In this document: positions 12,213 to 38,132 of the stretch, one piece after another
Layout: every line of letters starts with the position of its first letter
Position numbering within the stretch: the stretch's first letter is position 1
Origin: Rufibacter hautae
GTDB taxonomy: Bacteria > Bacteroidota > Bacteroidia > Cytophagales > Hymenobacteraceae
DNA: 64,000 nt
NCBI RefSeq assembly: GCF_008271695.1
Contig: NZ_VKKY01000003.1
Coordinates: forward strand, 1,426,001 to 1,490,000
Direction of reading: 5' to 3'
Notes under the pieces: model-generated
Database searches by the model: none
Told to the model about the DNA's origin: nothing
Seen by the model: only the letters and a program-made list of their open reading frames with translations
Program-made: the position numbers and the translations under genes

Positions 12213-12621
12213 CATTTACTTCTTCGAATACCCTATTGCTCTGGGGAAAATGGCGGTGAAATGAACTAGGCTTATCTACAGAAATTCAAAGGAATTAATT
12301 ATAGGTTACCAAGCAAATAGACACGGAACCCAGGTCTTCCCAAATCCCGAAAAACGGCCGTTTACTAGGACATTGGTGTTTATTCTAACGCCTGCCTGTG
12401 TTGATTATAGAAGTGTCCCAGATGGACATCCCACAAATCAAATCTGCATGATGTTTATGAGAAGGTATTTGTGAGATGCCTTACTTTAAAAGATAACCGA
12501 CTACTCGCCTAGTAGAGTTAGCACCACTTAGTCAAATCAGCTGAGTATTTCGCTTCAAAATAATCCCTGCCTCAAATACTCAGTTGGCTGCTTGTTTGGC
12601 TATGTTCTGTTGCCTACTTTC
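12213..12621. other. Non-coding stretch left of the recombinase element
   Basis: No convincing gene. The only structure noted is an inverted repeat CTGAGTATTT (12541-12550) / AAATACTCAG (12574-12583). The stretch is clearly more AT-rich than the recombinase gene that follows. Confidence 0.5.
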
Positions 12622-12656
12622 GCTTCAGTTCTAGCAAATGTCTAAATTGAAGTGAT

Positions 12657-13295
12657 ATGGAGATAAAAGAGACGCCTGCCAAGGCCATCATCTACACCCG
12701 CGTGTCCACCGGAGGGCAGACCACCGACCGGCAGGCGAGGGACCTGCGGGAGACCGGCTACGAGGTCGCGGAGGTGTTCTCCGAGAAGGTGTCCGGGTTC
12801 AGCAAGTCGATAGGGGAGCGGCAGGAGCTGCAGAAGGCCCTGGCCTACCTGGAAAAGGAGGGGGTCAAGTGCCTGCTCATCCACGAGATCTCCCGCCTGG
12901 GCCGCAACACCACCGAGGTGCTGAACCTCTTGAAGGAGCTGGAGGGGAAGGGTGTCTCGGTCTACATCCACAACCTGGGCCTCACCCTCTCGGCGGAGAA
13001 CGACTCCAACCACGTCTTCACCAAGCTCGTGATCACCATCATGGCGGACCTTGCCCGGATGGAGAGCGAGCAGCTGAGCCTCAGGATCAGGTCCGGCATC
13101 CGCAGCCGCAAGGCCGACGGGCTCCATACAGGTAGGAAGGTCGGCTCCCAGGAAAGCCGGGAGAAGTTCCTGGCCAAGCACAAAGAGGTGATCAGGTACC
13201 TGAGGCTGGGCCGGTCCTACCAGGAGATCACCAAGCTTACCGGGGCCGCGCCCTACACCATCTCCAAGGTGAAGAAGGCGCTGGCCGAAGGGTAG
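12657..13295 (+). CDS. Serine recombinase (resolvase/invertase family)
   Basis: A 212-residue protein with the N-terminal resolvase domain: catalytic serine S17 in YTRVSTGGQT, then IHEISRLGRNTTEVLNLLK with the conserved Arg residues of the active site, the long E helix (ADLARMESEQLSLRIRSG) and a short C-terminal HTH (SYQEITKLTGAAPYTISKVKKAL). Size matches small resolvases/invertases rather than large integrases. It starts 16 nt inside a 19-bp repeat that recurs inverted at 18432. Very GC-rich compared with the sequence just upstream, consistent with acquisition. It may act on the bounding repeats, or invert DNA locally. Confidence 0.93.
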   Translation: MEIKETPAKAIIYTRVSTGGQTTDRQARDLRETGYEVAEVFSEKVSGFSKSIGERQELQKALAYLEKEGVKCLLIHEISRLGRNTTEVLNLLKELEGKGVSVYIHNLGLTLSAENDSNHVFTKLVITIMADLARMESEQLSLRIRSGIRSRKADGLHTGRKVGSQESREKFLAKHKEVIRYLRLGRSYQEITKLTGAAPYTISKVKKALAEG

Positions 13296-13797
13296 GGGAA
13301 ACGGGTTCCTCCCGGGTCTCAGGTTCCCAGGTCCCGGGGACAAGCCGGCGCAGGACAGATTCGCCAACTGCGCCAGGTGTGTCTCGGTGGGGTTTCTTGG
13401 GTCCATATCTACCTTTACGTTGGAATGCGGGAAGCGTGCGTGACGGGAGAAATGCAACGCAGGGCAGGGTAAGAACGGAACCCCTGGGAGAGATTCCCCG
13501 CCTGTACTGTGGCTGTGGAGGGGTAGCCCGAAAGAACCCTCTATTCCGACTCCCTCCTTCTGCCCTCAGGCATGCCACCGGACTTCCGCTCCGCCCCGGA
13601 CGCTTGCCCACCTATGGCATTCCCACAAAGCAATGTACTTTTATATTATTCGCGCAAAAGCTTGTATTAAATAAATAATATATACATATTAGAATAATCA
13701 TTTGCACTACCACCTGAATACAGCCAGAACCTCGGCCGGCCTGTGCGCCGCCGCCGCTGTCCCCCGATAGCCTTTCCCCACCAAAACCCATATAAGG
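13296..13797. other. Intergenic, GC-rich then AT-rich
   Basis: About 500 nt without a gene I can support. The first 320 nt are GC-rich; 13630-13700 turns sharply AT-rich (runs of ATAAATAATATATAC type) and probably holds the promoter of the methyltransferase gene. No clear hairpin or repeat seen. Confidence 0.4.
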
Positions 13798-14748
13798 ATG
13801 GAAACAACGGAGATGAGCCGACGGGTGGCTCCCTACCTTCAGCCCGGCAAGGCGCCCGCCCTCTCGGGCGATTACCTGGAGTTCCCGCTGAATGACCCGG
13901 GCGAGGGCCTGCTGGCCAACGCCTTCTACTTCGGGCACCCCGGGTGGGCCGAGGAGTACCTGACCTACTGCCACCGCAGCGAGGCCTTCACCGGCCGCTG
14001 GAAAGCCGCCATCGGGGACTGGGCGGGGAAGGTGGTGGTGGACATCGGCTGCGGCCCGGGCAACGTCTACGCCTCGCTGGGGGGCGGGCCCGCCCTGCTG
14101 ATCGGGGTGGACGTGGCCCCGGCCTCCCTGCGCCTGGCCAAGGGGCTGGGCTACGCCACGGTGCTGGCGGACGCCTCGGACCTGCCCTTCGCCTCGGGCT
14201 TCGCCGACGTGGTCACCCTCAACGCCACGCTCCACCACTGCCAGGACATGGGGGCGATCCTAAGGGAGGCGGCCCGGCTGGTGAAACCCGGCGGGCTGCT
14301 GGTCACCGACCACGACCCGCAGCGCAGCGCCTGGGACTACCGGGGGCTGGCCAAGCTGCTGTGGGACGCGCGCCTGGTGATCTACAAGCTCGCCAAGCAC
14401 AGCTTCCACAAATCGGGTGACCAGCAGGCCCGGGCCCTGGCCTCCGAGCTGCACCACCGACCGGGCCACGGCGTCACGGAAGGGTTCTTCCAGGGCATCC
14501 TCCAACCGCTGGGCTTCGAGGTGCGGGTCTACCCCCACAACCACGGTCTGGGGGCCGAGGTACTGCAGGGGCAGGCGGGCCCGGCCGAGTTCAAGTACCG
14601 CCTGGGCAACCTGCTCTCCTACCGCAACCCCGACGCGAAAACCAGCGCCCTCACCCTGATGTGCGTGGCCCGGAAGCCCTCCGCCGACGGTCTCCGGGAA
14701 AGCCCGGCCGCAGCGAAAAAGGCAGAAAGCGCCTACCCACAGCGGTGA
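13798..14748 (+). CDS. Class I SAM-dependent methyltransferase
   Basis: A 316-residue protein with the Rossmann-type methyltransferase core: motif I VVVDIGCGPG (79-88), an acidic residue ending strand 2 (LIGVDVAPAS), LADASDLPFASGFADVV (motif II/post I) and LKPGG-type motif (ARLVKPGGLLVTDHDP). Methyltransferase_11/UbiE-like; substrate unknown. The C-terminal third (KLAKHSFHKSG to LMCVARKP) resembles no domain I recognise. Extremely GC-rich, in the middle of the putative recombinase element. It has no obvious functional neighbour. Confidence 0.88.
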   Translation: METTEMSRRVAPYLQPGKAPALSGDYLEFPLNDPGEGLLANAFYFGHPGWAEEYLTYCHRSEAFTGRWKAAIGDWAGKVVVDIGCGPGNVYASLGGGPALLIGVDVAPASLRLAKGLGYATVLADASDLPFASGFADVVTLNATLHHCQDMGAILREAARLVKPGGLLVTDHDPQRSAWDYRGLAKLLWDARLVIYKLAKHSFHKSGDQQARALASELHHRPGHGVTEGFFQGILQPLGFEVRVYPHNHGLGAEVLQGQAGPAEFKYRLGNLLSYRNPDAKTSALTLMCVARKPSADGLRESPAAAKKAESAYPQR

Positions 14749-14846
14749 CCATCCCTGACCGGCCATTCTCGGTGGCTGCCGCCTTCCCTTGTCTCCGGAG
14801 CCTCCGGGTACCCGGTGGGCTGTTGAGGGATGGATTTTTCCGGCAC

Positions 14847-15254
14847 ATGGCAGAAGCTACACATATGGAGCGCTGGGGCAGGAAAACCGACCTTCTTTTC
14901 GCGGCCTTGGCCCTTACCGCCATCGGCGGCATGGGGACCCTGGCCTGGCTGGCCTGCTCGGGCGGGGACGGCTCCCGCTACGCGGCCCCCGCACTGGTTC
15001 TCCTGCTGCTCCTGTACCTGGCCTTGGGTCTCCTGGGCCCGGCCCCCAAGGCAGGGGGCGGGAACCCTGCGCCCGCGGCATGCCCAGGCCCACCGGCCGT
15101 GGGGAGCGGGGAAGCCCCAACCCGAATGCAGGTATCCTACCGGCTGGGCGCTGGGAACAGGGCCGGGCACCCTGCTCGGAAGGCCGCCCCTGAGCGGGGA
15201 TACTCCCCGAAACGCCTCTGGCCACGGGGCAAAAAAGAAGCCGCACACCTTTAG
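14847..15254 (+). CDS. Small two-helix membrane protein (copy 1 of a local pair)
   Basis: A 135-residue protein, or 129 if started at the ATG at 14865 (MERWGRK). Two hydrophobic helices are visible: FAALALTAIGGMGTLAWLA and APALVLLLLLYLALGLLG, then a Gly/Pro-rich charged tail. A homologue is encoded at 28704-29105 on the minus strand; both have MER-GR, GMGTLAWLA-SG, SRYA-PALVLLLLLY, a PK-GG segment, HPA and a final GYS/RYS...R block. Conservation of protein sequence across two copies supports it as a real gene. The stop codon falls in the loop of a hairpin that terminates the opposing gene. Function unknown. Confidence 0.6.
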   Translation: MAEATHMERWGRKTDLLFAALALTAIGGMGTLAWLACSGGDGSRYAAPALVLLLLLYLALGLLGPAPKAGGGNPAPAACPGPPAVGSGEAPTRMQVSYRLGAGNRAGHPARKAAPERGYSPKRLWPRGKKEAAHL

Positions 15255-15268
15255 GGGATGTGCGGCTT
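15230..15268 (-). terminator. Terminator hairpin (minus direction) next to repeat copy a
   Basis: AAGCCGCACA (15238-15247) pairs with TGTGCGGCTT (15259-15268). The A run at 15231-15236 becomes a T run on the minus strand, so it terminates leftward transcription of the small gene at 15376-15549. Confidence 0.7.
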
Positions 15269-15295
15269 GTATGGTTGCCTTGAAACGATACCTTT

Positions 15296-15316
15296 CCAGA
15301 GCGCATGCGGATAGAC
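15296..15316 (-). repeat. Dispersed repeat core, copy a
   Basis: On the minus strand this reads TCTATCCGCATGCGCTCTGG, one of six copies of TAYCCGCNYGCGCTCTGRRG in the window. As in other copies, a terminator hairpin lies 30-60 nt downstream in the same orientation. Confidence 0.7.
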
Positions 15317-15375
15317 GGTAAATGCCTCAAAGCATCATGGTAGACTCTGATACGGGCTAATTGCCAGGGGGTTGC

Positions 15376-15549
15376 TCACCATCCCTCGCTCCATACCAAG
15401 AAATCCTCCGAGCAGAACCTGTTCAGGGCGTAGCTGTAGGCTGCGTGGAAGCTGGAGAATCCCGTGTAGACGGTGCCCCCTCTCTTGACATAGTAGGGCT
15501 TTGGGACATAGGGGCCTAGGTTCTTCTTGGGGTGGGTGGCTTGGGTCAT
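15376..15549 (-). CDS. 57-residue orphan protein (YAL-RFCSE family, intact copy)
   Basis: A short minus-strand gene with ATG at 15549 and TGA at 15376, encoding a Tyr/Phe/Trp-rich protein (GPYVPKPYYVKRGG, AAYSYALNRFCSE, ending FLVWSEGW). A second, broken copy is found at 29959-30190 with recognisable PYYV/HYYV, YAL-RFCSE-F and W residues, and similar DNA. Conservation of the same protein pattern in two places supports it as a genuine gene family rather than chance. It is followed by repeat copy a and a terminator in its own direction. It resembles no family I know; function unknown. Confidence 0.55.
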   Translation of the reverse strand: MTQATHPKKNLGPYVPKPYYVKRGGTVYTGFSSFHAAYSYALNRFCSEDFLVWSEGW

Positions 15550-15603
15550 CGTGGTCTTTTCTGTTGTTTGTCTTAAGGCGGTTACGGTCAGCCTATTGCA
15601 GGG

Positions 15604-16008
15604 TTATACTTTGCTCTTCGCTAGCTTTCTGATTAGATCCAGGGCCTCTGCGGTAAGGGGCTTGAGGAGGTAATCGAATGGTCCGAGTCCTTTGGCCTGT
15701 TCGGCGTATTGGCGGGGTTTGGCATTGGAGAGCAGGACTATCTTCGGGGTGAGCGGTAGTTGGCGGCAGGCTTCCAGGAACTCGAATCCGTCCATATCGA
15801 CCAAGTACGGGTCGAGGAGGATGAGGTCAGGGCAGGCGGCTGCTTCCTCTGGGGTGGCGCAGCACCTGAGCAGCATCTCGTGGGCCTGCTCCCCGCTGTC
15901 GGCGGCGTTGATTTCCTCGGTGAACCCTGCCTGCTGCATGAGTATGGTGCTGAGATACGCGCTGATGGGGTCGCTGTCCACTAACAACACCTTCTTGAAT
16001 CTTTTCAT
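15604..16008 (-). CDS. Orphan single-domain response regulator
   Basis: A 134-residue receiver domain only. Acidic pocket D11 and D13 (VLLVDSDP), phosphoacceptor D66 (DLILLDPYL), S94 at the Thr/Ser position (KIVLLSNAK) and K116 (LLKPLT). There is no output domain and no histidine kinase nearby, so it would act as a phosphate shuttle or protein-interaction switch, as CheY- or SpoOF-like proteins do. A related single-domain receiver is encoded at 30484, in a block that shares other gene families with this one. Confidence 0.9.
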   Translation of the reverse strand: MKRFKKVLLVDSDPISAYLSTILMQQAGFTEEINAADSGEQAHEMLLRCCATPEEAAACPDLILLDPYLVDMDGFEFLEACRQLPLTPKIVLLSNAKPRQYAEQAKGLGPFDYLLKPLTAEALDLIRKLAKSKV

Positions 16009-16083
16009 TTCCGCCTGGGCTTGGGTGCGCTGGGTTGCCGAACCATACGGTTGGCGCTAATAGTGGGGGGAGAGTAAAGGTAC

Positions 16084-16122
16084 AAAAAAAAGCAGCCGCG
16101 CACCTCTTGGGATGCGCGGCTG
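16084..16122 (-). terminator. Terminator hairpin (minus direction) next to repeat copy b
   Basis: CAGCCGCGCA (16093-16102) pairs with TGCGCGGCTG (16113-16122); the A run at 16084-16091 gives a minus-strand T run. Confidence 0.7.
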
Positions 16123-16132
16123 TAATCGACTT

Positions 16133-16215
16133 TAATTCCCCTCAGAGCGCGAGCGGGTAAGGGGTTGACAGACAATCATGAAAACGGGAATCTAGTACTT
16201 AGTCATACCCCTGGG
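16133..16215 (-). repeat. 83-bp inverted duplication, left copy, containing repeat copy b
   Basis: Reverse complement of this segment matches 30241-30323 with about three substitutions and one single-base indel. It includes repeat core copy b (minus strand CCTTACCCGCTCGCGCTCTGAG at 16141-16162). The two copies lie inverted about 14 kb apart. Confidence 0.8.
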
Positions 16216-16268
16216 TGTTCACCAAGTTTCAGGGATGCCTAAATACAGGTGTTTAAACTTGATAATTA

Positions 16269-16304
16269 GGTATTTATATGTTAAATAGGGTATTTATATG
16301 TTAA
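16269..16304 (+). repeat. Tandem 16-bp direct repeat upstream of small membrane protein gene
   Basis: GGTATTTATATGTTAA occurs at 16269-16284 and again at 16289-16304, a 20-bp period (two helical turns). Placed 110-150 nt upstream of the gene at 16417, it could be a protein-binding site. Otherwise 16009-16416 holds only the hairpin and repeats listed. Confidence 0.6.
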
Positions 16305-16416
16305 GCAGTGCGGTTTATACCTAAGGGGACCATACACAGAGGGGCGGTGAAAGGGGAGGGTCAGATGGTTTGGGTAGACCCATATCCTTTATCCACATAC
16401 AGTCTATTGATAGAAT

Positions 16417-16623
16417 ATGACAAGAACAACAGAGCCTATGCCGCGATTGGGGAAAGGAACCAGACGCAACACCCTTACACTAGTGATTGTTTTGGGTGCC
16501 GCTTCCCTGGGGGTTGTGTACATGCACAGGGAGAATTATGCCGCCAATGCGGTGATGATGGTAGCCCTGGTGTTCTCTCTTATCGTGGTCTTCTTTGTCT
16601 TAGAGCGGCTCACGAGGCAGTGA
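16417..16623 (+). CDS. Small two-helix membrane protein
   Basis: A 68-residue protein, basic at the N-terminus (RLGKGTRRN), with two predicted membrane helices (TLTLVIVLGAASLGVVYM and AVMMVALVFSLIVVFFVLE) separated by a short polar loop (HRENYAAN), and a basic end. Topology resembles the pair at 14847/28704 but sequence does not match. No family recognised. Supported mainly by the clear alternation of charged and hydrophobic segments and an ATG start. Confidence 0.5.
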   Translation: MTRTTEPMPRLGKGTRRNTLTLVIVLGAASLGVVYMHRENYAANAVMMVALVFSLIVVFFVLERLTRQ

Positions 16624-16856
16624 AACAACGCATCTGACAGGATATTCCTCTTTATTGAATTTTGCCTATCATTTGCCAAGAAACCACAAAGCTGATGGGT
16701 ACCGCGGCCTGTGGTTGCTTTGGGACGTAGCTGGCGAAAGCGGATAGTGGTAAGTGTTTCAAAGCACCATTTGGAAGTTTGTAGTTCGGGCTCATTCCAG
16801 TAAGTTGCCTCACCAGCTCTTCTTTGTACTTGGGGTCCTTTCCTAAAAGGCCAAAT

Positions 16857-17106
16857 GGTACGAAACTGTACCCGAAACAGGTGCAATCCGCTCGGATTGC
16901 ACCTGTTTCGGGGGACAATCATCCAACCAAAAAGGGAAAGTGGTACAGAACTGCACCACTTTGAGTACCTGTTTTACCAATAATTTTCAGGTAAGCACCT
17001 GTAAATCAATAAAAACAGTAAAAATAGGCATTTTAACGGGTGTGAAACCACACCCAACCCCACGTCCCGCGCTGCGGACCGGGTGCAATTGCACTTGGTC
17101 CGCAGC
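16857..17106. repeat. Cluster of five inverted repeats
   Basis: In order: GGTAC-N6-GTACC (16857-16872); a perfect 20-bp arm pair 16871-16890 / 16893-16912 with a 2-nt loop; AAAGTGGT / ACCACTTT around 16937-16962; CAGGT-AAGC-ACCTG near 16990; and a nested palindrome at 17071-17106 (GCTGCGGACC arms around GTGCAATTGCAC). No T run follows the strongest ones, so they are not ordinary terminators. A minus-strand frame (16652-16918, from a TTG) overlaps the left part; I could not decide whether it is a gene remnant. Confidence 0.7.
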
Positions 17107-17144
17107 TGATATATGAGCGGGTTGCTGGGCGATTTGCGCCTGTC

Positions 17145-17708
17145 CTATTCCTTAGGTACGCCAACCTGACTATTCATGAATGCTTGGAACTCCTGCTCGC
17201 TGATCAAGTTCTCTGCCGCGAAACCCTTGGTGCTGCCGAGGGCATACGCCTTGTTTCCCTCACTCTCGCGCTGCAGGGCTTCGGCCACCACCTGCGCGAA
17301 GGACAGCGGCTTCTCCCCGGCATGCAGCAGGGAAGGGACTTCCGGGTAGTGGAACAGGACCTGCCCGCCATGGCAGTGGTCATAGTATTCCTGGGCCGTG
17401 CCGAACCGGTTCCCGTAGCGGCCCTGGTCGGCGCAGGCCTGGTCCAGCACGAAGGGGACGAGCCGGCCGTCACGGAGGTAGAAGCCCAGCGTGAGGGTAT
17501 ACCGCTGTCCACCGTGGGAGAGGCTGCCGACCGTCAGGTGGCTCACCTTCTGCCATTGGTACTCTTGGTGGGGGGTGGGGACCAGCCCGCTCGCCTGGTG
17601 GCGGGTGTAGAAAAGGACGAACAAGTCCTGGCAGGGAACGGTGGACTCCACGGTGAGGTCCACCGCCAGCTCCTCTTCTTTGTCTAAATCCTGAAGGTAG
17701 ATCAGCAT
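17145..17708 (-). CDS. Hypothetical protein, divergent from controller-like HTH gene
   Basis: A 187-residue protein. The frame extends upstream to 17780, but the ATG at 17708 (MLIYLQDLDKEEELAVD) fits best since the extension overlaps the regulatory region. Mixed alpha/beta composition with a beta-rich first half (DLFVLFYTRHQ, RYTLTLGFYLRDGRLVPFVLD) and a polar segment GRYGNRFGTAQEYYDHCHGG. No signal peptide or membrane helix, and no family recognised. It is divergent from the HTH gene at 17856 across two ACTATAGT boxes and may be its regulatory target (inference). Confidence 0.7.
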   Translation of the reverse strand: MLIYLQDLDKEEELAVDLTVESTVPCQDLFVLFYTRHQASGLVPTPHQEYQWQKVSHLTVGSLSHGGQRYTLTLGFYLRDGRLVPFVLDQACADQGRYGNRFGTAQEYYDHCHGGQVLFHYPEVPSLLHAGEKPLSFAQVVAEALQRESEGNKAYALGSTKGFAAENLISEQEFQAFMNSQVGVPKE

Positions 17709-17794
17709 GTCGTTATGGTTTGGTGAAAGGGTTCTCGCCGCCGCTCTGGAAGCACCATGCCCCAGGAGGCAGCCCACCAAAGATACTAAATGCA

Positions 17795-17850
17795 GACTAT
17801 AGTCCGTGGAGCGGAGACCCTTATTTAGGCTCCTTTGTGCATACTATAGT
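17795..17850. promoter_or_regulatory. Two ACTATAGT operator boxes (C-box like)
   Basis: GACTATAGTC at 17795-17804, continuing as GTCCGTG, and ACTATAGT at 17843-17850, 6 nt before the HTH gene start. The sequence GACTATAGTCCGTG is close to the operators of restriction-modification controller proteins (C.Esp1396I type, from memory). The second box would overlap the translation start region, suggesting autorepression. Confidence 0.6.
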
Positions 17851-17855
17851 CACAG

Positions 17856-18107
17856 ATGGAGGAGAGGGCGTTCGGGTCGGTCATGCAGGAGCTCAGGAAG
17901 GGGAAGGGGTTGAGCCAGGAGGAGCTGGCCTTCCGCTGCGGTCTGGACCGCACCTACATCTCCCTGCTGGAGCGGAGCCTCAGGGTGCCCACCATTGTGA
18001 CCCTCTTCAAGGTCAGCGTTGTGCTGGAAATCAGGCCCGAGGAGTTCATCGCCCGCATGAACGTGCAGGACCGAAACTATGGGGAAGGAAGCCATCTGGA
18101 TCAGTGA
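17856..18107 (+). CDS. XRE-family regulator resembling restriction-modification controller (C) proteins
   Basis: An 83-residue protein consisting of one HTH_3 domain: MQELRKGKGLSQEELAFRCGLDRTYISLLERSLRVPTI, with recognition helix around LDRTYISLLER. Length and sequence pattern match C proteins, which time expression of restriction endonucleases. The upstream ACTATAGT palindromes support this relationship. No restriction or DNA-methyltransferase gene is adjacent (the methyltransferase at 13798 is not of the DNA-methylating type by its motifs), so it is either orphaned or controls the divergent gene at 17145. Confidence 0.85.
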   Translation: MEERAFGSVMQELRKGKGLSQEELAFRCGLDRTYISLLERSLRVPTIVTLFKVSVVLEIRPEEFIARMNVQDRNYGEGSHLDQ

Positions 18108-18259
18108 AATACCTTGGAGCCTTTTCGTGCGCAGCTTCTGCCCATTGGGCCCATAGCTGGTTGAGAGTAGGCAGTGCAATCAGAAACCTCGGATGTTCCT
18201 ATAACAACCTAAGCAGTAGGACGTATAAAACCCATAATCAATGCTTCCGGCAGTCCGTC

Positions 18260-18329
18260 TTTACCCGCTTGCGCTCTGAAGAAACAATGCCTGGAGTACT
18301 TTCTGTCTTTATCCGCATGCGCTCTGAAG
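18260..18329 (+). repeat. Dispersed repeat core, tandem copies c and d
   Basis: TTTACCCGCTTGCGCTCTGAAG at 18260-18281 (split here as TTTACCCGCTTGCGC then TCTGAAG) and the matching copy at 18308-18329, exactly 48 bp apart. Both belong to the six-copy family and are followed by the hairpin at 18365. Confidence 0.75.
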
Positions 18330-18364
18330 ACAGTGTTTGAACCCATTTTGGACTTGCTCCAAAA

Positions 18365-18405
18365 AATAGACCGCGCATCTTATGAGGTGAGCGGTCTATT
18401 TTTTT
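18365..18405 (+). terminator. Bidirectional terminator after repeat copies c/d
   Basis: AATAGACCGC (18365-18374) pairs with GCGGTCTATT (18391-18400), with a T run after and an A run before. Confidence 0.75.
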
Positions 18406-18561
18406 GTGCGGTCACCCTGCTCTGATCCTGCCATTTGCTAGAACTGAAGCAAAACTAAACGCACTAAACTGCCTAGGCAAGCAAAAAATAAAGCGTTTGA
18501 AGTATGTGTTATTTTGAAGTGAAACATTTTGGAAAATATATATTCAACGCTTAGAATATTG

Positions 18562-27412: not shown

Positions 27413-28702
27413 GATGATAACGGAATGAATGTTGGATAGAACTGAGGTGATAGCAGCCAATTAACTCAACCGGAGGGCAGCGACTCGTTTTGTTCAGGCA
27501 CAGGAATGCACCGGATGGTTCCTTCGGGGAACCACCTGCTAGAGTTTGGGCCTGAGAAAAAGAAGGATGCCTTATCGGTTAAGACCTAAGGCGGGAAAAG
27601 AAAGAACTGTGGGTTCCTTCATAGGTGGGCGCAAAGCGGGACAGGAGCGAACCTGAAGCAGGAGGTCGCAGCAGACAAACGGCAAGGTCGGATCGAATCA
27701 CGCCCTGATTATTGGTGGGCAACAGACCTCCATGTTTACCTGTACAGGATTGTAGGATGAATTTAATAAAAAATATAGGTAAAGCAACAATAATCTATTA
27801 AACTTTATGTTAAATAAACCAGCCCTATCTCCGATTCACAACTGACACATAAACTACATGTTATTTCCTTCACATGGAACCCATGAGTCCGATCATGCTT
27901 TGGCCTGCTTTCTCCGCCCATAGGCTTGCCTTTGCGAACTCGGAGGCCTGAGGGAAACCTCTCCCGCCGTTTATGTACGGGAGCCATCCTTCCCATGGTC
28001 AAGGTTGCCCCACTGCCCAGGCCATACCGTGCCTGACATATTGTTCCATCAGGGATACCTTGGGTATCCAACCAAGGTATTCCCCGACCTGTGCTAAAAT
28101 ATCCGATGTTTAGCTTGTACCTTCCTTGGAAATAATTATCTTAATTTACCATTAGATTTTTGTTTAAGTGGAATGTCCTACCATACAGCAGGTAGGTTTC
28201 CTAAGTAAAAAGGGCACCCGTTAGGTGTCTTTTTTATTGGGATGGTATGGAGTTTAGCCTTATGGGAATGCGTTGGTTTGCCTAGGCGGCTAAGCGTTCC
28301 CTCCTAAATGGATTTCGCCATTGGGCAGTCCAGCGGTGCGCGTAAAAAGGACCCGGTGCTTGCGCCGTCATAAGCTGCGCCCGGGGAAGCGCCACTCACC
28401 CTGTTATTTACGGTCACGCCAAGGAGACGCATTCTTTTTTTCGTCCTATGATTCTGGCTTTTGCCATATATCCCTTATTTTGCGGAGCCGATGGTTTAAA
28501 AGTCTGTCAACCGTCGGCTTCAGTATGTATCTCACGATACATGAACCCTGTGGGCCACCTTCCTTGTCAGCTGGCGGCCCGCAGGGTCCTTCTCTCCCGG
28601 GCACCTTGGTTCACGTTGGAACCTATACCGAATAGTAAGGGGTAAGTACCCTGTCCCCGGAGATATATGCCACCCATCGTTTTTCGGGTCACAGGGAGTG
28701 CC
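27413..28702. other. 1.3-kb stretch without a convincing gene
   Basis: Short open frames here have no protein-like composition. A hairpin GGGCACC/GGTGTC followed by TTTTTT is at about 28208-28233, reading rightward, although no gene clearly precedes it. The region borders the second accessory block and may be decayed DNA. Confidence 0.4.
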
Positions 28703-28778
28703 CCTATCCGCTTGCGCTCTGGGGGAAACGGATCAGCCCTCCCACAGCCGTACCCCTTCCCTGGGTAGGGCTTCTTTT
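28703..28778 (+). repeat. Dispersed repeat core, copy e, with terminator hairpin
   Basis: CCTATCCGCTTGCGCTCTGG within 28703-28724, followed by a hairpin (AGCCGTACCC / GGGTAGGGCT around 28746-28772) and T run to 28778. As with copy a, it overlaps the 3' end of the small membrane protein gene on the opposite strand. Confidence 0.65.
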
Positions 28779-29105
28779 TTGCCCCATGCCCTGGATGCGT
28801 TCAAGGGAGTACCTCCTTCCAGAGGCGTTTTCCAGGGCAGGGTGCCCATCCCGTTCCTCTGACTCAATTCGAGACGATGCCAGCGCGGGCTCGGGGCCCT
28901 TACCCCCGGGTTTGGGCAGTAGTTCCAGGAGGCTCATAGCCATGTACAGGAGTAGCAGCAGAACCAATGCGGGAACCGCGTAGCGGGAGCTGCCCGCGCC
29001 TGAGCGGGCCAGCCAGGCCAGGGTCCCCATGCCTACGATGGCGGCCAGCGCCAATAACGCAAAAGGGAGGCCGGACCTTCTGCCGGCGCGCTCCATTGCT
29101 TCCAT
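28704..29105 (-). CDS. Small two-helix membrane protein (copy 2 of a local pair)
   Basis: A 133-residue homologue of the protein at 14847. Helices FALLALAAIVGMGTLAWLA and YAVPALVLLLLLYMAMSLLE, then a charged tail with GHPALE and RRYSLERIQGMGQK, matching the tail of copy 1. The last 20 residues are read through the repeat/hairpin cassette, so the true 3' end may have been altered. Its presence on both sides of a 14-kb region, together with other paired genes, points to duplicated accessory blocks. Function unknown. Confidence 0.6.
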   Translation of the reverse strand: MEAMERAGRRSGLPFALLALAAIVGMGTLAWLARSGAGSSRYAVPALVLLLLLYMAMSLLELLPKPGGKGPEPALASSRIESEERDGHPALENASGRRYSLERIQGMGQKRSPTQGRGTAVGGLIRFPQSASG

Positions 29106-29453
29106 CCTTTTCTGGTTTTACTGTGGAGTAAGGCTTCCGAGTGGGGACAGCTGCTGCTGGTACAGGCAGGCAGAGGATCTGGTTGATCCGCAGGCGGGAG
29201 TACAAATACTATCCCTAAGTTATAAATACTGAGCGTAAAATACAAGGGTTGCCATGGCTAATGTGGGACACCAGGAACCCACGGAAGCTTGCGTGTGGCT
29301 CCGGCTGGCTATGGCGGGGCCAAAACCATGGGGATGCCTGCCCGGCAAAAGGGATCACAGCCCAGGGAACTTCCCAGATTCCCCGGTCTTCCACCTACCC
29401 GCTTTAGTTTCTCCCATAGCCTCCGTTTCCGCCGCCTCACCCGTAAAAAGGAT

Positions 29454-29777
29454 ATGGACCGAAGAGACCGCACCGAGATGCGCCTGGCACGGCTAGGAGA
29501 CGTGAGCCGCAGGCTGGCCTTGCTGGCGCTCAGAGAGGCGCTACCCGACCCGCGGAGAGAACTCTGCCTGAAGATCGGAAGCCTTATCAAGGAAGCGCAG
29601 GGTGAATTGGGCCAGTTGGAGAACTTCATGAGGAGCCACGAGGGCCTGATCACCGCCCAGGTAACCCTCCTGGAAGCGGCGATACTCGCCACCAACCTCA
29701 GGCCCGGGGAAGCCCTGGAGACGGCGCAAACCGGGGTGGATTCGTTCCTGGAGAGCATGGGAGACAGGCACCGGTAA
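29454..29777 (+). CDS. Helical hypothetical protein
   Basis: A 107-residue, leucine- and arginine-rich helical protein starting at the ATG at 29454 (MDRRDRTEMRLARLGDVS); the open frame extends upstream to 29289 but that part is not protein-like. Segments ALREALPDPRRELCLKIGSL and LIKEAQGELGQLENFMRSHE suggest a coiled coil. Distant resemblance to the 90-residue protein at 20210. No known family. Confidence 0.5.
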   Translation: MDRRDRTEMRLARLGDVSRRLALLALREALPDPRRELCLKIGSLIKEAQGELGQLENFMRSHEGLITAQVTLLEAAILATNLRPGEALETAQTGVDSFLESMGDRHR

Positions 29778-29958
29778 GGCATGCCCGATACCCTCACCGG
29801 CGCGTCGGGTTTCCTCTGGGCAATCCCACGCCCACCGAAAGAGACCGGTTGGCCTGCTGGCAGGGAAGCACTGAAAACGGGGCGGGTTCTACGGAATCCC
29901 GGGCCCAGGCTGAAGCCTGGTCGGCAGAGTACTGTACGTTCGGACCAAAGAATACCTC

Positions 29959-30190
29959 ATGCTTGCCGTACCCACCCCATACCCGTTAGAACGCCCTAGG
30001 GATTGGGCCAGAGAAGCAGGTCCCAAGAAAGGCAGGCCATTACTATGTTACGTGGGGTGATGGCAAGGCGGAAGGCTCCGGCTCTTTCTGCGAGGCCTCC
30101 ATGTACGCCCTGAGCAGGTTCTGCTCGGAGGGTTTCACGACGTGGAACTACACTTGGCAAAACAACCGCACCATCCCGATAAATACCTAA
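29959..30190 (+). pseudogene. Broken copy of the 57-residue YAL-RFCSE protein
   Basis: The ATG at 29959 aligns in DNA with the start of the intact gene at 15549-15376 (shared CCCACCCCA), but its frame stops after 33 codons. The conserved part lies in another frame, from about 30002 to the TAA at 30188: HYYVTWGDGK, MYALSRFCSEGFTTW. One frameshift between them explains this. It is followed by repeat copy f and a hairpin, just as the intact copy is followed by copy a. Confidence 0.6.
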
Positions 30191-30240
30191 TTCTCAGGTG
30201 AAAACACGGCATATCGGCCACGCGTGAAACCTGGCGCGCG

Positions 30241-30362
30241 CCCAGGGGTATGGCCAAGTACTAGATTCCCGTTTTCATGATTGTATGTCAACCCCTTACC
30301 CGCTCGCGCTCTGAGGGAATTAGAATGGCCGCATGCCCCAAAAGGTGTGCGGTTTCCTTTTG
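30241..30362 (+). repeat. 83-bp inverted duplication, right copy, with repeat copy f and terminator
   Basis: 30241-30323 matches the reverse complement of 16133-16215. Repeat core f is at 30295-30316 (TTACCCGCTCGCGCTCTGAG). A hairpin GCCGCATGCC / GGTGTGCGG with a T-rich tail follows at about 30330-30362. Confidence 0.8.
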
Positions 30363-30483
30363 CGGACTGTATCCCCGGGCCGGACCTGGGGGCCAGGGGC
30401 CGGCGGCACAGCCACTCCACCCGGGAGACCCCGCTGCGGGTTGGCGACACCTACTGGGAATCTGACGGGTGACGCATGGGCAA

Positions 30484-36923: not shown

Positions 36924-37217
36924 GGGCGGTTGGCGTTTTGGGCTTAATCTCAGGAAAATAGGTCGAAATCAACTATTCCCCAAAAAGGATAACAGAACAT
37001 CAGTGGAAAGCTGAATTGCATGAAGGGTTGAACACGGTGTTGAGGCTTAATCTTATAGAAGTGTTTTATGCTGGTTTGTGAAAAAATGGCTCAAAAACTA
37101 AGTGTTCAAAATATACTCACTAGCATGGAAGTAACTTTCGCTATATAGAGTATACTTAATTAAAAAATATTTTAAATTGTCTTTCAATTAGATTGAATAC
37201 AAATTAAATGAATCAGT

Positions 37218-38132
37218 ATGGATGATGTGTTTTACAATAAAGGAAGCTATTCTTGGAGTGATTTGGAAGAATTAATAAAGAACGAAGTAGAAGAAAATTT
37301 AAATTTAGATTATAAATCATCTAGGTCTTTAGATAAAACAGATCAAAAGAAGACCGAGATTGCCAAAGATATAAGTGCTTTTGCTAATTCCAATGGAGGA
37401 ATTATTATATATGGTATCGAAGAAGAAAATCATAAACCAGTAAGTTTTTCTTTTGTAGACGGAAAAATAATTACGAAAGAATGGCTTGAAAATGTAATAG
37501 ATGGAAATATTCACCAGAGGATTTCTGGTATAAAGATTTTTCCTATAAGGCAAGATGGAGATTTATCTAAAACAGTGTATCTAGTTAAGATTCCAATTAG
37601 TACAGATGCACCCCACATGAGTGTAGATAATAAATACTATAGAAGATATAATTTTAAATCTGTTCCAATGGAAGAATACGAAGTTCGGCTATTATATAGG
37701 AGAGAATCTTTGTCTGAAATGGAATTTAGCATTATTAGGATAAAGCATGTAGGAATAGAAAATGAGAATCAAATAGCAATGATGAAGAGAGAATTCTCAA
37801 TTCATGTTAAAAATATAGGTAAATCGCTTGAAAAGAATTGCAAAGTTGAAGTAGAGATGTTTGATGTTGATCATGCCAATATTGTTATACATCTTGATAA
37901 AAACTCAAATACTTCTTACAGGATATCTGAAAATAGTAAAGCAATAGTTTCAGGTTATAATACTGCTCCAATCTTTCCTGATGAAGAAGTTGCATTGCTT
38001 AGGTACTCTATTTCGGTAAATCTAAATTATTTTGAATATTTTATGAATAATGCTGTTTTTAAGGTTAAAATATATGACTCATATTCTACTAAAGAAGATT
38101 ATTTTAAATTGAGAAACCTTAAGTTAAATTAG
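37218..38132 (+). CDS. AlbA_2 (Schlafen-type) domain protein, AT-rich insert
   Basis: A 304-residue protein. Residues about 12-140 are an AlbA_2/Schlafen-like ATP- or nucleic-acid-binding domain: ESLNLDYKSS-type motif (EENLNLDYKSSRSLDK), EIAKDISAFANSNGGIIIYGIEE and a DAPHMSVDNKYYRRYNFKS block. The rest is beta-rich and unrecognised. The gene and flanks are far more AT-rich than their neighbours, and it interrupts the cco region between ccoI and ccoS, indicating horizontal acquisition. AlbA_2 proteins often serve as regulators or defence components; the role here is unknown. Confidence 0.85.
   Translation: MDDVFYNKGSYSWSDLEELIKNEVEENLNLDYKSSRSLDKTDQKKTEIAKDISAFANSNGGIIIYGIEEENHKPVSFSFVDGKIITKEWLENVIDGNIHQRISGIKIFPIRQDGDLSKTVYLVKIPISTDAPHMSVDNKYYRRYNFKSVPMEEYEVRLLYRRESLSEMEFSIIRIKHVGIENENQIAMMKREFSIHVKNIGKSLEKNCKVEVEMFDVDHANIVIHLDKNSNTSYRISENSKAIVSGYNTAPIFPDEEVALLRYSISVNLNYFEYFMNNAVFKVKIYDSYSTKEDYFKLRNLKLN

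Follow-up and report, generated by a model that had tools for sequence, protein, structure and literature searches.

A small serine recombinase of Rufibacter hautae lies beside one of two inverted copies of a repeat that appears to belong to a family of res-like recombination sites. The DNA analysed here, referred to as the window, is a stretch of 64,000 nucleotides (contig NZ_VKKY01000003.1, positions 1,426,001 to 1,490,000). We propose, with a probability of roughly 0.55, that the enzyme is a Sin/beta-like recombinase and that its res-like sites are dispersed as exchange points. At the level of sequence, the comparisons below establish the site family, its layout, its tie to the recombinase and the reassortment of the flanking DNA.

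An initial annotation of the window had described perfect 19-bp inverted repeats as putative ends of a candidate new mobile element. The pair itself is exact. GCTTCAGTTCTAGCAAATG is found at 12622-12640 (+) and its exact inverted copy at 18432-18450, where 0.01 matches with three or fewer mismatches are expected by chance per window. The true repeat is longer, however. Outward from the 19-mer the two copies share 93 bp at 68% identity, and the match to our site model spans 108 bp, so the 19-mer is the best-conserved part of a repeat of about 108 bp. Searching the whole genome for the 19-mer (5.84 Mb, 8 contigs), as the annotation had proposed, returned these two exact copies and near-copies on other contigs, one with a single mismatch (C2:1691107) and one with two (C5:15509). 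DNA searches that included the flanks recovered the same module at C5:15435 with the left flank as query and at C2:564145 with both queries. A consensus RNA fold of the repeat was unconvincing (three pairs, five sequences).

The start codon of the recombinase, at 12657, comes 16 nt after the left repeat, as annotated (Table 1). Gamma-delta, Tn3 and Sin resolvases were among its solved relatives in a search of the PDB. The best NCBIfam match was to the Mpi-type invertases (NF009949), but its 64.6 bits are far under the cut-off of 272. A Pfam match to an INTS6-type C-terminus was below cut-off and was disregarded. Viral contigs contained 12 relatives, the best of them 36% identical. Seven Rufibacter loci possess a recombinase gene or fragment that is 74-100% identical to the one in the window. 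These are the window itself, three loci in R. tibetensis (G008; one a fragment), one each in genomes G006 and G013, and a fragment in R. latericius (G003). The repeat module was present upstream of the recombinase in all seven, with an IS3-like transposase (read from sequence) between the two in G013. In G082, G040 and G102 (another genus of the family), a module with GCTTCA-like letters directly precedes a recombinase relative. Two Pontibacter relatives (recombinase 55-57% identical) keep the layout, while their half-site letters differ (ACTCC versus GCTTCA). Since the module precedes all seven close genes or fragments and the layout recurs with other letters in the two Pontibacter, the repeats are very probably the recombinase's own sites, and this part of the initial annotation is well supported.

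The module can be divided into a putative site I and a putative site II (Table 1). The letters of the left site I are GCTTCAGTTCTAGCA-AA-TGTCTAAATTGAAGT, and its dyad ends 3 nt before the recombinase ATG. The original 19-mer corresponds to the left half and centre of site I plus 2 bp more, and the half-sites of site II are located 70 and 53 bp upstream of site I. Conservation falls past the central AA. Across 26 copies the mean information is 1.88 bits at this dinucleotide, 1.61 for the left half of site I and 0.81 for its right half, and it drops to 0.22 further on. The dyad of the window's left site scored 14 (z 2.0) with a shuffle maximum of 15, and is therefore not above all shuffles; the dyads of G008_2L, G008_1rec, G013, L087, L090 and G102b exceeded every shuffle. 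A half-site pair with 17-bp spacing at about -70/-53 was detected in 8 of the 25 upstream regions tested (the window, R. latericius, the R. tibetensis fragment, G013, the two Pontibacter, G082 and G102b). A further R. tibetensis copy, G008_1rec, keeps the spacing at -60/-43. The layout test found only a single half-site in G008_2L and L042, and nothing clear at the place of site II in five Cyclobacteriaceae/Marivirga-type loci, four relatives of 40-42% identity, L091, L092 and L094. It misread G006 (wrong anchor) and G040 (wrong dyad), in both of which the sites are visible in the sequences.

This arrangement is like that of Sin/resH and beta/six. The Sin site is described as an inverted site I with a head-to-tail site II in a compact 86 bp, and beta is described likewise (PMC2428073, PMC2764113). 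The Rufibacter system shares the small serine recombinase and the two-part site, which is about 102-108 bp long here. It differs in its 32-bp site I, its half-site letters and the many solo sites on chromosomes and plasmids. Tn3-family res is described as containing three dimer sites (PMC2428073). The Tn3 tnpR/res system is similar in its resolvase family and in having res beside the gene, but the site here is two-part and Sin-like, and no transposase was found among the eight interval proteins scanned.

We determined the distribution of the sites with two models, the first built from 5 copies (E <= 0.1) and the second from 26 copies with stricter filters that lose weak matches (E <= 0.001). 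Because both were built from found copies, the input copies match by construction. The first model had matches in 14 of 16 Rufibacter genomes. The second yielded 42 matches, some of them partial, in 17 of 200 genomes of the family, of which 35 were in 11 of the 16 Rufibacter genomes and seven in six other genomes. Most Rufibacter copies (28 of 35) have no close recombinase (74-100%) alongside, including one (G008:C2:79153) that lies about 1.7 kb from a broken recombinase piece of 55% identity. The expectation that the repeat would keep to places related to the recombinase was therefore only partly borne out. Five of the seven copies outside Rufibacter were examined, and three had a recombinase while two were solo (G128 and a second copy in G102). 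Within the stretches fetched, 20 of the 26 strong sites were single. One direct pair, 8.5 kb apart, was found in G002, and second sites near the recombinases of other genera were weak matches at best.

We then compared the flanks of 32 copies, using positions -400 to -3 on the left and 112 to 500 on the right. These were grouped in the same register by single-linkage clustering at a BLAST E-value of 1e-3. Near-identical long overlaps, which represent shared DNA, were left out (left and right sites of the window, left and right sites of G008_2, and G002 1a and 1b). Left and right flank types combine freely. Left type A occurs with right types R0, R3 and others, and R0, the type that contains the recombinase, occurs with left types A, C and a singleton. 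Similarly, R1 is found with left types B, D and singletons, and the partners of R3 are A, E and a singleton. Apart from E, which consists of two near-identical copies, every left type that has several members pairs with two or more right types or singletons. Given the single-linkage clustering at this threshold, membership of R1 is weak for G002_1b, G003_10 and n_L203. G013 fell outside R0 because an insertion separates its site from the recombinase. The loci within left type B, and likewise those within D, may be orthologues and so would not represent independent exchanges.

Long shared left flanks place the breaks more closely. G002_1a and G011_178 match over 2.06 kb, ending at position 98, and G002_1b and G011_111 over 6.4 kb, ending at position 106. 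Windowed identity in the first of these pairs was 0.78-0.96 to position 92 and then 0.60 and 0.51, with a background of 0.46-0.50. As judged from such alignments, the best-placed break is within site I. Close to the site, the sequence common to G011_178 and each of G014_2, G011_111 and G000_C2b is confined to the right side, from about position 68. The 270 bp inside the right site of the window are 85% identical to the flank of the solo site in G128, another genus. The outer extension of the left site (type C, Table 1) is 76% identical to that of G008_2L over -153 to -3 and to that of G008_2R over -146 to -71, and contains, by eye, an inverted repeat CACAAAT...ATTTGTG. A hairpin-like upstream extension of another type (A) lies about 80-150 bp outside the site in L022, L076, L078 and L079, and seems, also by eye, to be conserved with paired changes between copies. 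Together, the reassorted flanks would fit the pattern expected from crossing over at site I, which insertions and decay may partly mimic.

In the mechanism that we favour, the recombinase would cut site I at its central AA and join two such sites, with synapsis through site II and a bending protein. The enzyme would probably serve plasmids; a named plasmid of R. tibetensis carries one close relative. Chromosomal and plasmid copies of the site that stayed behind would be exchange points, where the DNA beside one site could be swapped with that at another. In the window, two inverse sites would permit inversion of the interval by the enzyme, while other sites would permit gain or loss.

Several observations weigh against this proposal. 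The right site of the window has a degenerate right arm, TCAGAGC in place of TTGAAGC, and the direct-repeat pair is at its expected place in only those 8 of 25 regions, with 16 others lacking it by the layout test. Two Persicobacter plasmid relatives (55-56%) have no clear module. A second strong site was found in only two of the seven recombinase loci (about 9-10 kb searched on each side), and we saw neither inverted or circular forms nor an empty site. Sin is described as selective for directly repeated sites (PMC2764113). In the MBL group the break is not sharp, as identity already declines gradually between -100 and 92 without a step. The flank breaks could also stem from other mobile elements, insertions or decay. 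Finally, one observation in favour of the proposal is open to another reading. A palindrome from the interval occurs at five loci in 4 of the 16 Rufibacter genomes, and at all five a site lies no more than about 5 kb away. A Rep3-like match is present on the contigs of four of these loci, however, and the linkage may only reflect plasmid carriage.

A comparison with R. latericius bears on a different explanation. A 12.7-kb block, from C3:1425687 (L024 17688) to window position 12364, is collinear with R. latericius contig C4 at 90-98% identity. Both ends of the block are sharp. The right one stops some 180 bp short of the left module, and contig C4 contains nothing that matches the right flank. 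Past the block, R. latericius continues with a different resolvase and a gene resembling a replication initiator, both named from sequence. This would suit an ordinary resolvase with its res, a pair for resolving plasmid multimers that has entered the chromosome; the second site would then be a relic, and the exchanges would be rare accidents that serve no function. That recombinase loci mostly have one site and that relatives are on plasmids also agrees with this explanation, which we consider a real possibility, but it fits poorly with the Rufibacter sites that have no close recombinase and with flank types that reassort. The initial annotation had also proposed a comparison with syntenic loci that lack the interval. 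Searches of the 16 Rufibacter genomes, with the cytochrome gene of the left flank and with the esterase and 4.5 kb of DNA of the right flank as queries, found no clean empty site.

The layout of the window recurs on R. tibetensis plasmid 1 (235 kb, NZ_CP012644.1), where a site at 147301-147409 (+) is followed by the recombinase and a site at 152155-152256 (-). This pair encloses other cargo, including patatin-like and DUF4142 genes. Two close inverted pairs are unlikely to have arisen by chance, since six sites in 5.84 Mb give about 0.03 expected pairs within 6 kb. Two inverse sites with the same central AA and a recombinase inside are also what an invertible segment would require, in which the enzyme inverts 12638-18434 and alters expression, and beta recombinase has been reported to invert DNA between inverted six sites. 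This explanation is compatible with the others, but we regard it as unlikely, given that the inverted form was not seen, that the two cases differ in cargo and that the right arm of the right site is weak.

The data did not support the view that the repeats form the ends of an element that moves as one piece. Most strong sites are single, the other inverted pair holds different cargo, and homology to R. latericius ends at 12364 on the left with the right flank unmatched there. A transposon with terminal inverted repeats was rejected because the repeats are part of longer sites, a family with mostly one copy at each locus. Dispersed MITE-like elements, or a transposon with inverted ends of about 108 bp moved by the serine recombinase or another transposase, could account for copies with right modules R1 and R3 beside differing left flanks, but are improbable in view of the accessory-site layout, of loci whose left flanks are 91-93% alike yet carry different right sides, and of the lack of a DDE transposase among the eight interval proteins scanned.

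Table 1. Features of the interval between the two res-like sites and of the sites themselves (window positions)
Feature	Position	Strand	Basis or remark
Outer extension of left site (type C)	12393-12546	+	Common to both R. tibetensis plasmid sites
Left res-like site, whole module	12548-12655	+	Homology and model match
Putative site II	12552-12574	+	Head-to-tail half-sites GCTTCA (12552) and GCCTCA (12569), 17 bp apart
Putative site I	12622-12653	+	32-bp imperfect inverted repeat, central AA at 12637-12638
Small serine recombinase, 212 aa	12657-13295	+	PF00239, E 7e-31
SAM-dependent methyltransferase, high GC	13798-14748	+	PF08241
Small protein, membrane nature read from sequence only	14863-15254	+	DNA relative at 28884-29096 (-)
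Single response-regulator receiver domain	15604-16008	-	
Small protein, 68 aa	16417-16623	+	No family match above cut-off
1.26-kb module of palindromes, protein and helix-turn-helix (HTH) gene	16816-18077		Copies elsewhere
Palindromes	16871-16912, 17071-17106		
Protein without assigned family	17145-17708	-	
Restriction-controller-like HTH	17856-18107	+	Restriction-system control proteins, PADLOC E 1e-14
Non-coding right-hand module beside right site	18140-18412	-	Terminator-like hairpin 18356-18409
Right res-like site, inverted relative to left	18417-18524	-	Homology and model match
Site I of right module	18419-18450	-	Right arm degenerate

The cargo of the interval is a mosaic and appears to be partly plasmid-derived. 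Its left half is indeed high in GC (0.699 at 14-15 kb), but not all of its genes are orphans as first annotated. A copy 76% identical to the start of the small membrane protein lies elsewhere in the window (Table 1). The 1.26-kb module recurs on contig C5 of this genome (86.6%) and in G001 (71%), and at the protein level in G002:C12. A Rep3 initiator and ParA are encoded on contig C5. Matches to both are present on G001:C117 and G002:C12, and G008:C2 matches only the initiator, more weakly. A fold search with the protein at 17145-17708 (mean pLDDT 66) returned nothing at E < 0.001. In the region 17145-18107, as well as in L213, L205 and L211, the HTH gene is divergent from this conserved protein with ACTATAGT boxes between them, also on plasmid-like contigs. 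We take these boxes to resemble C-protein operators. A different serine recombinase (231-239 aa) adjoins the palindrome, protein and HTH module in G002 and G001 (L205 475-1170 (-) and L211 2016-2735 (+)).

Further features were seen in the window. A second cluster at 28400-30400 (-) contains relatives of the small membrane protein, of the region before the methyltransferase, of a small ORF and of the repeat at 16133-16277. An intergenic motif like CAGAGCGCnnGCGGRTA occurs at 15297-15313, 16142-16160, 18261-18279 and 18309-18327, often near terminator-like hairpins, and a stretch resembling it is also present in L077 near 10845. Outside the interval, GC drops to 0.30 at 37001-38000, over an ORF at 37218-38132, compared to 0.49 and 0.44 in the adjoining kilobases.

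Resolvase sites are usually regarded as private to one plasmid or transposon and as guarded against intermolecular recombination. Our literature search, which was not exhaustive, found no account matching the Rufibacter resolvase or dispersed or solo res sites. We regard the dif-module system of Acinetobacter as the closest working analogue. There, cargo on Rep_3 plasmids and chromosomes is described as lying next to short dif/pdif sites, with shuffling of modules (PMC12907356, PMC13141974). Rufibacter likewise has cargo beside recombination sites on plasmids and chromosomes. Unlike the XerC/XerD system, it has a serine rather than a tyrosine recombinase, longer sites with an accessory part, and far sparser sites. 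Modules each bounded by two sites, with many sites per plasmid, were not found, as pairs were limited to two of the seven recombinase loci and the direct pair in G002; nor are the linked enzyme and its sites of the XerC/XerD and dif type, the enzyme being a serine recombinase. Given this enzyme and the sparse sites, the system is not a member of the dif modules. That it is their serine counterpart, in which, across Rufibacter and neighbouring genera, genome-wide compatible Sin-like res sites with a fixed AA allow cargo exchange between plasmids and chromosomes while the recombinase travels with one site, is a tentative and rather doubtful extension of our proposal. If the solo sites with exchanged flanks are what we propose, a resolvase system would reshape genomes as dif modules do. 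The family may also be a source of serine recombinases whose sites are related but vary in half-site letters and in the central dinucleotide (AA, CT and CA as read), which would be of use in studies of specificity.

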